From positions 312,432 through 376,431 of the forward strand of contig NZ_JARRIB010000002.1 of assembly GCF_041647995.1 (NCBI RefSeq): a DNA stretch of 64,000 nt. The letters run 5' to 3'. The notes beneath the pieces were generated by a model, which saw only the letters and a program-made list of their open reading frames with translations, was not told the DNA's origin and ran no database searches. The translations under genes and the position numbers were made by a program. Within the stretch, counting starts at the first letter, position 1. The number at the start of each line of letters is the position of its first letter. Positions 45,778 through 51,717 of this stretch are shown here, piece after piece. This stretch comes from Pyrococcus kukulkanii (GTDB lineage: Archaea; Methanobacteriota_B; Thermococci; Thermococcales; Thermococcaceae).

Positions 45778-45844
45778 GGGTTTGGTTTAGTTGAGTAGTA
45801 TTTAAGGTTTTTGGGTGCTATTCAATTGTTCCACCAGCCTTATA

Positions 45845-45882
45845 ACTTACCCTGGGGTAAGTAACTTATGGTGGGGTAAGTT
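45845..45882 (+). promoter_or_regulatory. Tandem inverted repeats upstream of the AAA ATPase gene
   Basis: Perfect palindrome ACTTACCC-TG-GGGTAAGT (45845-45862), then AACTTA...TAAGTT (45863-45882) sharing GGGGTAAGT. They overlap or follow a TTATAA element (45840-45845) and end at the presumed TTG start (45881). A DNA-binding protein, perhaps the ATPase itself, may regulate the gene; that is inferred. Confidence 0.5.
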
Positions 45883-46931
45883 GCTATTTGACATCAAACC
45901 AAGAGCAGGAAGGAGGATCTGTACGATAGGGAGAGGGAGCTCAAGGAGTTTAAGGATGCCTTAAAGTTAGGGGAGAACCTCATCTTAATCTTGGGAATAA
46001 GGAGGGTCGGCAAAAGCTCCCTTTTAAATGTGGCCTTGAATGAGTCAAAACTTCCTTATGCAAAGATCGATGTTCGCTCCCTGTATTTCACATTCGGAAC
46101 CATTCCCCAGGATGCCTTGATAAGGGAGACCCTTGAATCTTTCCTAAGATCTACGCGTGGATTTAAGAAGTTTAGAGTTAGCCTAAAGAGGCTTGTGGCC
46201 TCTATTAAAGGTGTCAAAATTTCGGGCTTAAAGGTTAGGATAGGGAGGAAGGTCCACTTAATTGATATCCTGGAAAAATAGATTCCTGGGGAGAGAGGGT
46301 GACAATAGCGTTTGATGAAGCCCAATGTTTGAGGTTTTCTGGCCTTCAGTACGATGGGCTGATTGCATACGCTATAGACAACCTTCCAAACGTGACCTTC
46401 GTGCTTACGGGCTCCGAGGTAGGAATGCTACACGATTTCCTTGGCCTTGATAATCCAAAAAAGCCCCTCTTCGGCAGATATGCTAGGGAAATAGTGCTGG
46501 AAAGGTTCAGTAGAGATAAAAGCATAGATTTTCTTATTAAGGGCTTTAGTGAGCTTTCAATTGACGTGTCCCAGGATGAAATTGAAGACGCTGTAGAGAA
46601 GCTCGACGGAATCGTTGGCTGGCTAACGATGTACGGCTACCTGAGGGGAGTCAGAAAGCTCTCTCATGAGGAAGCACTTTCGGAGCTTTTGAATATGGTG
46701 AGGTCTCTAGTTAGAAGCAAAAGATATGGAATAATATTGAAAGCTGTTTCATTAGGGAATGAAAGGTGGAGCGAGATAAAGGAATTCGTTGAGTCAAAAA
46801 CTGGAAGAATTAATGATGCGAAGTTTTCTATTCTTCTGAGGAACTTGGTAAAGTACGGGTATTTGGACAAGATAAGGAAGTATAGAATCCAGGATCCTAT
46901 AGTTAGGGAAATTATTAGGAGATATTGCTGA
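45881..46931 (+). pseudogene. Archaeal AAA (STAND/DUF234-like) ATPase, frameshifted twice
   Basis: The reading begins LLFDIKP at 45881, changes frame near 45905 (one A short) into KSRKEDLYDRERELKEF, continues through P-loop GIRRVGKSSLL, and changes again at GAAAAATAG near 46281 (again one A short) into KIDSWGERVTIAFDEAQCLR. After that the frame is intact to a stop at 46931 with a C-terminal winged helix (FSILLRNLVKYGYLDKI). The restored protein would be about 349 residues, the usual size of archaeal ATPases of this family. Both lesions are in A runs, so error rather than decay is possible. Confidence 0.75.
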
Positions 46932-47161: not shown

Positions 47162-47533
47162 ATGAGTAGGAAGGCCATCTTGGCCCTTATTATAAGTCTA
47201 CTAACACTAGCGACAGTTTCCGTGGCAGCTGATGAAACTATAGCCAAAGAAATCATGCCTGATAAAAATTCGGAGAATTCCGAATCAACCCAAGTACCCC
47301 CATATTGCATTGTAACCCTATATGCATATGTCAACGCGCGCTTTAAGATGCCTCCCTGTTCACACATGCCAATTCTGATGCATAGTATTCACGATGGAGG
47401 AGATATTCCAGGAGCTATCGCTTCAGTGTTCTTTGGATATATACCCGGTCAAAGCATCGATGCCGCATGGACTGACTCTTACGGATCGGGATTTGGTAAA
47501 TTCTGGCATGCCCATGCAGAAGTCAAAGTTTAA
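47162..47533 (+). CDS. Small secreted protein, first gene of an ABC cluster
   Basis: A 123-residue protein. Residues 1-22 form a clear signal peptide (ILALIISLLTLATVSVAA); the mature part of about 100 residues has two Cys (PPYC, PPCSH), several His (SHMPILMHSIHDGG; FWHAHAEVKV) and a Gly/aromatic C-terminus. No family recognised. GGGGGGG precedes ATG 47162; an upstream in-frame TTG at 47132 has no ribosome site. It heads a run of genes ending in an ABC ATPase, which suggests an exported peptide with its transport or immunity genes. A cargo role is inferred. Confidence 0.65.
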   Translation: MSRKAILALIISLLTLATVSVAADETIAKEIMPDKNSENSESTQVPPYCIVTLYAYVNARFKMPPCSHMPILMHSIHDGGDIPGAIASVFFGYIPGQSIDAAWTDSYGSGFGKFWHAHAEVKV

Positions 47534-47545
47534 GGGTGAGCAATA

Positions 47546-48610
47546 ATGGCTTCTAAGCATATATTTGGTGTCTTTCTCTTCCTTCTAATTTTGTTTTCAG
47601 CAAAGACAGTATTAGCGTCTCCCTATTGGCTTAAGGAAGGGGTTTACATGACTTATATAGCTCGAGCTAGTGAGCCTATAACTCCCGAAGATCTCCTAAA
47701 TGCATCAAAAACTTCAAAGAATGGTGTATTATCAATAGTCTACAATTACTCGAATATCCCCTTTGTGATAAATATTTATGGGAATGGAAGTGTTAATTTC
47801 ACAATTGTTTCAATCGACAGGGGATTTGCAAGGGTTCGCCTAACGATATCGGGTAACTACGCAATTGTCAGATACTACTACCTTAAAAATCAGAAACCAG
47901 GTTTTGATCCTTTTTGGGATGAGGACGCAGTTATAGATGTGAGAGAGGGACCAGCTCTATTAAGTTCAAATTACTACATGACTGAAATAGTGCTTAAGAG
48001 CATAATACTTGAGGGGGAGTATCTGATAGAGCTTAACACGGGAGATGTTTATGATTTAAAGGGGAATTACTATGGTAAAACAATTCTATGGAATGATCCA
48101 ACTAATCCTTTGGAGAAAAATGAAACACTCTGCTTTGACTCCAAGGGAAGGCCTGTAAGGATTGCAGATGTCATGACTTCTAACACCTCAATTCTAACAT
48201 ACTACAAAACTTTCATGCCTCCAGCCGTACTCGTCAAGACAACGTTTGGTGTAGAAAAAGTTCCTCCAGATTTAGAAGCCGTTGGAAGAAACTTAATGAT
48301 TTACGACGGCTCTTCGGGAATTTTGTTGAGCATGTTGGCATTTCACATCCCAGACGCCAAAGCTGCAGGATTTCCAATGTTATTTGGGTTTGACGAGTAT
48401 ATGCATAAGCTCAGTTGGGAATCTAAAAAAGAAGGAACTATGGTATCTGGTGGTCTCGTCCTCTACGACACGAATGCCAACTTCATTCAGCCTAAGAAGA
48501 ATACTTACTCCCCGTCGACTTCTCCCCTTGCTTATGCCTACCTCGTAGGCATTATAGCTGTAGTCTTACTTGCACTTAGGTTCTTCGTAAGGAGGGGATA
48601 TCATGAGTAA
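47546..48610 (+). CDS. Extracytoplasmic membrane-anchored protein of the ABC cluster
   Basis: A 354-residue protein: N-terminal signal/anchor (FGVFLFLLILFSAKTVLA), a large outside domain of beta character with several sequons (NYS, NGS, NFT), and a C-terminal helix followed by RRGYHE. No known domain recognised. It starts 12 bases after the secreted-protein gene and overlaps the permease gene by 8 bases, so it is probably translated with both. Confidence 0.65.
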   Translation: MASKHIFGVFLFLLILFSAKTVLASPYWLKEGVYMTYIARASEPITPEDLLNASKTSKNGVLSIVYNYSNIPFVINIYGNGSVNFTIVSIDRGFARVRLTISGNYAIVRYYYLKNQKPGFDPFWDEDAVIDVREGPALLSSNYYMTEIVLKSIILEGEYLIELNTGDVYDLKGNYYGKTILWNDPTNPLEKNETLCFDSKGRPVRIADVMTSNTSILTYYKTFMPPAVLVKTTFGVEKVPPDLEAVGRNLMIYDGSSGILLSMLAFHIPDAKAAGFPMLFGFDEYMHKLSWESKKEGTMVSGGLVLYDTNANFIQPKKNTYSPSTSPLAYAYLVGIIAVVLLALRFFVRRGYHE

Positions 48611-49362
48611 GTTAAGGGTTCTGCTTAACTGGGAACTAAATGACCCGCTTAAGGTTATTATTTTGATTACTGGCATGTTACTAAATGCCTTGATAATTCA
48701 CAGGTCATATTTGAACGTTTCCTCTTCACTAACTCACTTTGTTGGGATTTCGACGTTGAGGATTAACCCCGAAAGTACTCACACAGCCATGATAATCGAG
48801 TCTCTCCTCCAGAATCTTAGCTTCTGGATGAACTCTCTCTCATTTCTGGTACTTCTTTGGTGTAATTACTTTCAGGCTTGATAGAGATTTTGGATATGCA
48901 AACTCCCTATACTCCCTTCCCTACTCAAAAACAAAGATACTTATAGCCAAGCTACTGGCGGTGTTAATGTTTTCCCTTCTTTTGATTCTTCTGCCATTCT
49001 TTTCTGTCACGATCCTGGCAAACTTTACAATAATTCGATATATACCAGCAATTCTATCTTCAAATCCCGTGACATTTCGCTTAATCATGGTTCTTTACGC
49101 GATTCTTTATTCGCTCGCTCTCATTCTTTTGATGTCTCTCCTCTCTCCTAATGTCTTTATAGCATTTATAACAAGCTTCTTACTCCTTTTTGCACCGATT
49201 TTTCTGCACCTTGGTGTTATCCCTCCAGCTCTCTTCATTTTTGCAAGCTATGAGGGTGGTCTTTCACCGATTGGACAAAAATTTCTAATTTCTGGAATCT
49301 TGATCCCCGCTATCCTACTCCTCTCCTCAGCACTTTTAATGAACAGGAGGGATATCAAATGA
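48603..49362 (+). pseudogene. ABC-2 type permease, one frameshift
   Basis: The first frame runs 92 codons (MSKLRVLLNWELNDPLKVII onward, two helices) to a stop at 48881. From about 48855 another frame continues without a break: FGVITFRLDRDFGYANSLY through several helices to 49362. Joined, they make a six-helix ABC-2 permease of about 253 residues with the conserved F-x-x-E/R-x-D-x-GY loop. The shift (one extra base or two missing) is at CTTCTTTGG. All neighbours are intact, so either the transporter is newly broken or the base call is wrong. Confidence 0.7.
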
Positions 49363-49814
49363 GACTCCTTACGGCCATTATTACTTTCTTTCTCCTACTC
49401 CCGGCAGCCATGGTAATTCAGTATTATGAGTATTCTAGGGAGATAAAGTCTGTAGGCCCCTATCCTTTACTTCCATCAGGGAAGGAAGGAGGACACTCAA
49501 TAACATTCTCGACGCCGACTCAGTCCTTAGCTGAAATAGAATGCACTGGGGGTTCTGGATCTCTTGAAATCGTTGATATTTTCAGTGGCGAGATAGTTTT
49601 CTCAGCTCTCATCCATGGGCAGATCTCAGAAGAACTTGTTATTCCCCATGAAGGATCATACTACGTAGCTTATTTTGGTAACGGCTCTCTTTCCTGTGTT
49701 ATAAGGTTCAAGGAGAACTATCCAACGGAGAGCGTCCAGAATGCAATCTACACTACTGGGACAGTATCCGCACTCGTTCTTGCGATCCTTCTCTGGAGGA
49801 GGTGGAGAAGGTGA
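49359..49814 (+). CDS. Small bitopic membrane protein of the ABC cluster
   Basis: A 151-residue protein with an N-terminal helix (LLTAIITFFLLLPAAMVI), an outside beta domain (SLAEIECTGGSGSLEIVDIF) with two Cys, and a C-terminal helix ending WRRWRR. Overlaps the permease gene by 4 bases and the ATPase gene by 4 bases. Likely a transporter accessory or immunity-type component; family not recognised. Confidence 0.65.
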   Translation: MRLLTAIITFFLLLPAAMVIQYYEYSREIKSVGPYPLLPSGKEGGHSITFSTPTQSLAEIECTGGSGSLEIVDIFSGEIVFSALIHGQISEELVIPHEGSYYVAYFGNGSLSCVIRFKENYPTESVQNAIYTTGTVSALVLAILLWRRWRR

Positions 49815-50500
49815 TAGTCGCTGAAAACCTAATAAAGCGTTTTGGGAGTATATATGCGCTGAGGGGGATAACCACAGAGATTCCGGAGGGAATGACGTTA
49901 ATTCTTGGTCCCAACGGCGGAGGAAAATCAACTTTCCTGAAGCTCGCTACAGGAATCTACCGACCAACTAGCGGAAAGATATATGTTTTCGGAGAAGATC
50001 CTTGGAAAAGCGAGAAGATAAAGGAGATGATCGGTGTTTCCTATGATCCACCTTCTTTCCCCAAATTCATCACAGGTAGAGAATGGCTGATGCTCTTTGC
50101 ATCGGCTAAGGGACATGGAGAAGAGGAAGTAGAAAGAGTTGCCAAGCTGTTCAATATCGACTTTCTCGACAAGAGAATAGGAGGATATTCCTCCGGAATG
50201 TTAAAGAAGCTAAGTGTGGCTCAGGCTTTTATAGGAGAACCAAAGCTCATATTCTTAGATGAACCTCTAGCCAACCTTGACTTCAAGAGTATTGCTAAGT
50301 TTGTTCGGCTTATGAAGAAGTTAAAAACAAGTGAAGAAGCAAGCTTTGTTGTTATCAGCCATATTTGGGAACCTCTACTCCCACTTGCTGACAAGGTTCT
50401 CGTTATCGCAGATGGAAAGCTCGTGCTTGAGGGGGATGTGGATGACGTGCAGGAGAAAGTTGAGATGCTTTTCAGGCCAAAGGTGGATATCGAAGAGTGA
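49811..50500 (+). CDS. ABC transporter ATPase
   Basis: A 229-residue ATP-binding protein: Walker A GPNGGGKSTF, signature YSSGMLKKLS (variant of LSGGQ), Walker B LIFLDEPLANLD and H-loop VISH. It belongs to the group that pairs with ABC-2 permeases for export of drugs, peptides or bacteriocins. GTG 49811 overlaps the previous stop (GTGA) and has GGAGGTGG upstream; GTG 49802 is an alternative three codons earlier. Confidence 0.9.
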   Translation: MIVAENLIKRFGSIYALRGITTEIPEGMTLILGPNGGGKSTFLKLATGIYRPTSGKIYVFGEDPWKSEKIKEMIGVSYDPPSFPKFITGREWLMLFASAKGHGEEEVERVAKLFNIDFLDKRIGGYSSGMLKKLSVAQAFIGEPKLIFLDEPLANLDFKSIAKFVRLMKKLKTSEEASFVVISHIWEPLLPLADKVLVIADGKLVLEGDVDDVQEKVEMLFRPKVDIEE

Positions 50501-51094: not shown

Positions 51095-51325
51095 ATGGTA
51101 ACCGTAACAAAGAAATACCAAGTCACTATACCCAAGGAAGTGAGAGAGGCCCTTGGAATAAGGGCTGGAGACGAAGTTGTATTCGTGAAAACAAAGGAGG
51201 GGTATGTAATTAAACGTCTCGAAGACTTCGTTAAAGAGATGGCAGATCTTGCAAAAGACATCGATGAAACTATAGAAGAAACTAGAAAAGGTCTCAGTAA
51301 AATATTCGGGGAGGCTCATGAATGA
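51095..51325 (+). CDS. vapB: AbrB/SpoVT-type antitoxin
   Basis: A 76-residue protein with an N-terminal swapped-hairpin DNA-binding domain (TVTKKYQVTIPKEVREALGI, RAGDEVVF) and a C-terminal helix that should clasp the PIN toxin. The stop overlaps the toxin start by 4 bases (ATGA). Such antitoxins repress their own operon. Confidence 0.92.
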   Translation: MVTVTKKYQVTIPKEVREALGIRAGDEVVFVKTKEGYVIKRLEDFVKEMADLAKDIDETIEETRKGLSKIFGEAHE

Positions 51326-51717
51326 AAGTTGTTCTCGATACAAATGTTTTTCACAATTGGAAGTTCTTACTTTGGCTGAAAGATTCTCCGTATTCTCCTG
51401 TCACAAGTTCAATAGCATATGCCGAGTACCTCTACCATCAGTCTAAGAAACTAGGTAGCATTGAAGAAGGAAAGAGTGCTGTTGATACACTGTTTCAGAG
51501 TATTCGCATTGAAGTTATGAAATTTGACAAAGAATGTGCCGTAGAAACTGTGAAAGCCGTCTGGGGGAGATGGGACTTTAGAAAAAATGCGAGGGATTAT
51601 ATGATAGGAGCGCTAGCAGTAAAGCTGAATGCTCCCTTGATAACATATAACAAAAAGCACTTCGAGTGGTATGATAAAGTATATATCCCTGAGGAATTTA
51701 TGGAGCTTTTGAAATAA
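51322..51717 (+). CDS. vapC: PIN-domain ribonuclease toxin
   Basis: A 131-residue PIN protein with the first acidic residue in VVLDTNVF, an acidic YAEYL in the middle and ARDYMIGALA near the end. VapC toxins cut RNA (often tRNA or rRNA) and are held by the AbrB partner. Complete and coupled to its antitoxin. Confidence 0.92.
   Translation: MKVVLDTNVFHNWKFLLWLKDSPYSPVTSSIAYAEYLYHQSKKLGSIEEGKSAVDTLFQSIRIEVMKFDKECAVETVKAVWGRWDFRKNARDYMIGALAVKLNAPLITYNKKHFEWYDKVYIPEEFMELLK

Follow-up and report, generated by a model that had tools for sequence, protein, structure and literature searches.

What could be the role of five tightly packed genes of Pyrococcus kukulkanii that begin with a small secreted protein and end with an ABC ATPase? 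We analysed a stretch of 64,000 nucleotides, referred to below as the window, in which the initial annotation had read five coupled genes at 47162-50500 as a possible cluster for the export of a secreted peptide. The five genes, A to E, are all present there on the plus strand (Table 1). They very likely form an operon, since the junctions B/C, C/D and D/E are overlaps of a few bases each. The genes on both flanks are read as leucyl-tRNA synthetase (leuS) and ribosomal protein L15e. The putative promoter was read by eye, a sigma-70 scan being without bearing on archaea.

Table 1. Genes and putative promoter of the A-E operon (window coordinates)
Feature	Coordinates	Strand	Basis
Putative archaeal promoter of the operon, A+T-rich TATA/BRE-like element cgaaaaatttataa	47097..47110	+	by eye
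A, small secreted protein, 123 aa from ATG	47162..47533	+	reading of ORFs
B, extracytoplasmic protein, 354 aa	47546..48610	+	reading of ORFs
C, ABC-2-type permease, frameshifted, two frames	48603..49362	+	ORFs 48603-48881 and 48961-49362
D, small membrane protein, 151 aa, extracytoplasmic middle part	49359..49814	+	
E, ABC ATPase, 232 aa	49802..50500	+	best NCBIfam models below cut-off

A of the window starts with a Sec-type signal peptide (MSRKAILALIISLLTLATVSVAA, residues ~1-23) and contains two cysteines. It has no lipobox cysteine and no likeness to a solute-binding subunit, which speaks against the alternative of a solute-binding lipoprotein. B combines an N-terminal signal peptide with one transmembrane segment at the C-terminus. 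As the initial annotation had proposed, A and B match no known family: neither of them, nor D, exceeds a family cut-off in Pfam or NCBIfam, and no PDB relatives were found for A or B. For A, Pfam returns no family at E<=1 and NCBIfam one insignificant match (E 0.13). The best NCBIfam models for E are DrrA and then a lantibiotic-protection ATPase, both far below cut-off, and the Pfam search finds no peptidase domain in this protein. With PADLOC, E alone of the five matches, to ATPase models of unrelated systems. AlphaFold models of A and B from two-row alignments have a pLDDT of 37-38 and are too poor to use.

The window genome (G000) was compared with G007, a close relative from a sister species of the same genus. 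In G007 A has 138 aa, and the window A differs from it by a clean 48-bp in-frame deletion, i.e. 16 residues fewer. The signal peptide and both cysteines of the initial annotation stand; its 123-aa length is, on this comparison of sequences, that of a shortened form. C is intact in G007 (252 aa, L008:9256-10014), and a one-base length difference near 48856 accounts for the frameshift already noticed in the window; this single base could be an assembly error. A neighbouring AAA/winged-helix ATPase gene (window 45817-46931) is also disrupted, being split at ~46275, while G007 has an intact copy of 384 aa (L008:6380-7534). Of the 54 G007 genes located in the window three are split there (two further rows correspond to a low-identity end and to the window edge). 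Conversely, G007 has split versions of three window genes, so that neither genome is unusually damaged.

With a shortened A and a frameshifted C, the window copy of A-E is probably inactive. For this copy alone, and compatibly with any of the readings weighed below, we consider rather probable a non-functional, decaying locus left after transfer. Besides the two lesions in A and C, the disruption of the adjoining ATPase gene, the degenerate A and B of G011 and broken copies of A elsewhere point to it. Against it stands the possible assembly error in C, and it is silent on the intact relatives, whose A and B evolve under purifying selection. Between the window and G007 each of the five genes has 98.5-99.7% identity, above the flanks (90.4% for leuS, 86-90% at 55.5-58.5 kb; a zone of ~95-98% extends to 55.5 kb). 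Recent exchange or conversion of the cluster between these lineages is therefore probable. Window 51095-51717 is read as an antitoxin-like and PIN-domain-like gene pair, the second gene of which is split in G007. G007 carries in addition a second unit, of the A3 type described below (L161, G007:C1:1716000-1728000); an A3 profile search of G000 gives no match.

Relatives of A fall into groups A1 to A7, defined by site and sequence. By eye and by hydrophobicity, every group has a signal peptide followed by ~75-115 residues. A cysteine pair is found in most groups and is missing in A2. All close homologues of the window A keep both cysteines and a W-H-A motif near the C-terminus, which are the sole features recurring throughout; the richness in histidine ascribed to A is not conserved. 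Profile comparison joins A5 with A6 (E 3e-5) and A1/A7 with A4 (E 2.6e-6, signal peptides included), suggests A1 with A7, and gives no sequence-level connection for the remaining groups. Five A proteins of groups A1-A4 match no Pfam family at E<=5. PDB searches with profiles of A1/A7, A4 and A2 give nothing significant, A1/A7 yielding five rows at E 0.09 or worse. The Pfam and NCBIfam searches found no toxic domain or bacteriocin family in A. No relatives occur among viral contigs, and a scan of genome contigs gives one Thermococcus MAG. Mature A and B have dN/dS values of 0.09-0.39, indicating maintained genes, and A gave no sign of positive selection.

When 94 genomes were searched group by group, our own count of the listed matches came to 95 A loci: 7 for A1/A7, 24 for A2, 16 for A3, 40 for A4 and 8 for A5/A6. 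B lies directly downstream in 92 of them, as read from coordinates or fetched regions, and so the clustering of A with B is not due to chance; the search of homologues and their neighbourhoods thus does not place A beside unrelated genes. In the three other loci, one A is cut off by a contig end and two are decayed A4 copies, one each in G000 and G007. These two pseudogenes (L159, G000:C4:102458-102786; L160, G007:C1:985320-985663) lie away from any B-C-D-E and are interrupted at nearly the same point. Nearly all other matches that looked like orphans precede divergent B-C-D-E genes.

A single-sequence search found B in 60 of 94 Thermococcaceae genomes. With a profile, 115 genomes from the phylum were searched and 61 had B, all of them Thermococcaceae. 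We mapped 93 groups with B in regions picked around B and A matches, a count that is not exhaustive; 72 of them are complete for B, C, D and E. Directly upstream of these complete units a recognisable small secreted A is present in 53 and absent in 19, three of the latter lying at contig ends. B is often in tandem, with up to five copies per locus. By our reading of the neighbour genes, the units recur at certain sites, beside leuS, fusA (EF-2), rubrerythrin, tldD and others, and at one and the same site, e.g. rubrerythrin, some species have A and others lack it. The permease of L087 passes Pfam PF12730 (36.5 bits, cut-off 27), and that of L008 remains below the cut-off. Some A4-type loci, among them L102, L095, L112 and L131, also contain secreted PEGA-domain proteins of 530-580 aa (F), after E or alternating with the B copies; L102 has four.

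The loci beside fusA reveal how the genes of a unit vary with one another. At this site the signal peptide of A has a mean identity of ~86-88% and mature A one of 52-55%; the first B (B1) reaches 33-37%, and C, D and E 72-81%. The distances of A and B1 are correlated at 0.81 (Mantel P 0.0002), a value unchanged in the partial correlation on E, those of A and E at -0.01, and those of the last B and C at 0.70. Thus the genes vary in two blocks, A with B1 and the last B with C, D and E. The corresponding correlations in six multi-B loci are 0.87 (A-B1) and 0.91 (last B-C). Within the A4 group the partial A-B correlation given E is 0.75 (P 0.0002), and in the five loci of the rubrerythrin site all genes co-vary, A with C and E included. 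The several tests used overlapping locus sets that were selected as the analysis proceeded, and these P values carry no correction for this. Adjacency alone, together with homologous recombination between tandem B genes, could also give the co-variation of A and B.

Internal or last copies of B share 55-93% identity with the B next to A in other loci, e.g. B2 of L059 with B1 of L060 (90%), or B3 of L128 with B1 of L058 (93%; the L058 locus is truncated ahead of its A). In those cases of shared B types for which both A are available, the A proteins are just 36-63% identical. Some loci (L122, L131) have two or three A-B pairs upstream of a single C-D-E. Moreover dS varies among the genes of one unit, which indicates mosaic exchange.

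The reading that we prefer, at a probability of about one half, is that A would be a secreted antagonistic protein, B its cognate immunity protein and C-D-E a shared pump; we infer the toxicity of A, its binding by B and the role of the pump from sequence comparisons. An archaeocin-like A of ~75-115 mature residues would exit the cell by the Sec route and act on cells without the matching B. Anchored at the surface, B would protect by binding A outside the membrane, and C-D-E, a shared ABC-2 engine, would supply the energy to remove or disarm the bound A. New A+B pairs would be acquired and swapped upstream of this engine, and B copies whose A was lost would stay in the array and confer immunity to the A types of other strains. 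Extended to the whole family, the proposal becomes an arms race across Thermococcaceae, with diversified effectors A, tandem type-specific surface immunity B and one C-D-E engine serving several B types; this we advance tentatively, at slightly less than even odds. Several points count against the preferred reading: immunity proteins of bacteriocins tend to be smaller than B, A has no recognised toxic domain, bacteriocin family or usable fold model and no sign of positive selection, and at the rubrerythrin site A co-varies with C and E too. As for the undescribed archaeal antagonistic or signalling system first envisaged, it is supported in part: A proteins without known family are tied to a transporter, in a pattern that antagonism would be expected to leave.

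Signalling itself would cast A as a secreted pheromone, B as a type-specific surface receptor and C-D-E as importing or clearing the signal, swaps of A+B creating specificity groups. Such groups would account equally well for the exchange of cassettes and for the coupling between A and the B beside it. Yet the mapped loci show no kinase, regulator or DNA-binding gene that constantly accompanies the unit, and several B types are kept without their A, which is easier to explain as immunity. We favour immunity over a pheromone-receptor pair because of these stacks of B and the lack of a constant regulator, and regard signalling as unlikely. A purely surface-related function, in which A and B would serve adhesion, S-layer interaction or nutrient capture beside a general ABC-2 transporter, their diversity coming from virus pressure or surface-antigen variation, appears to us about as improbable. 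Surface proteins do diversify quickly, and the PEGA-domain proteins of some loci would suit it; it nevertheless predicts neither the one-to-one coupling of A and B nor the stacks of B of other types.

The initial annotation took the ABC transporter for the exporter of A, and we depart from it here. The order A-B-C-D-E does resemble that of exporter operons, ABC-2 permeases are often exporters, and B might then be an accessory exporter subunit, with A exported or matured by C-D-E. However, A has its own Sec-type signal peptide, and the transporter is therefore unlikely to export it. The lack of a peptidase domain in E, the 19 of 72 complete units without a recognisable A and the lack of coupling between A and either C or E beside fusA argue in the same direction. 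Self-protection fits C-D-E better than export, which we rate as quite improbable.

We know of very little documentation of antagonism among hyperthermophilic archaea. If immunity is the right reading, the units offer a common candidate, open to testing, in which effector and immunity genes are matched, as well as a natural record of the accumulation of immunity genes. G023 contains an A-E unit that looks intact (L061). The comparisons between genomes suggest that parts of a weapon-and-immunity set, if such it is, are swapped between Thermococcaceae species.

Among known systems those of lactococcin 972 (PF09683) are similar in that a small Sec-dependent secreted protein is encoded beside membrane proteins and an ABC ATPase. 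We know of no separate counterpart of B or D in them. Both have a small precursor that begins with a Sec signal peptide, which in all A groups was recognised by eye and by hydrophobicity; lactococcin 972 has a precursor of 91 aa with a signal peptide of 25 aa (PMC7248182). It is without cysteine (PMC8538875), unlike several A groups, which have a cysteine pair. The PF09683 profile matches neither the window A (E<=1) nor any of five A homologues (E<=5); a search of the window genome with it is empty, but its control was silent too. For a beta-sandwich fold of the lactococcin 972 type, the model of A (pLDDT 37.1) is too low to use.

The LanFEG and As-48EFGH immunity transporters resemble our units in that a secreted peptide comes with an ABC transporter dedicated to it, and that of AS-48 has been proposed to expel AS-48 from the membrane (PMC8538875). 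For LanFEG the likeness extends to the second-best NCBIfam model of E, the lantibiotic-protection ATPase, and to an ABC-2-type permease, recognised by PF12730 in L087 and not in L008. E of the window nevertheless remains below the TIGR03740 cut-off (116.8 against 309.75 bits; 98.0 and 112.6 for homologues), and C matches no lantibiotic-permease model. In contrast to LanFEG and As-48EFGH, specificity here appears to reside in the tandem B proteins.

Polymorphic toxin/immunity arrays are characterised by cognate effector-immunity pairs, by the exchange of pairs and by orphan immunity genes that are kept. Linked pairs (the 92 loci and the A-B1 correlation above, a coupling that adjacency alone could explain) and orphan B matching other types recall these arrays. 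They differ in their variable part, a toxin domain at the C-terminus of a large carrier, whereas here the whole small A varies, and no known toxin domain was found in A.

Archaeal antimicrobial peptides were reportedly surveyed in a 2019 mBio paper. In Thermococcus, the accessible part of PMC4158269 describes paralogous secreted proteins (arCOG10027, arCOG10028 and arCOG10066) with a proposed role in conflict, and an ABC ATPase (arCOG00194) with a permease and a diverged putative binding protein. As far as that part goes, these clusters may include B and the ABC unit may include C and E; it contains no mention of A-B pairing, and its zincin metallopeptidase, in contrast, did not turn up in a scan of four F proteins. 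The hypervariable VARTIG Ig module of Thermococcales (PMC8416519) also consists of variable secreted proteins, and differs in that 'ABC transporter', 'permease' and 'ATPase' are absent from the main text of that paper. Earlier papers may have touched parts of the A-E system, A included. On the likenesses assembled here, the system would act in the manner of a bacteriocin with ABC immunity, but its proteins do not match the lactococcin 972 profile or reach the LanFEG cut-off.
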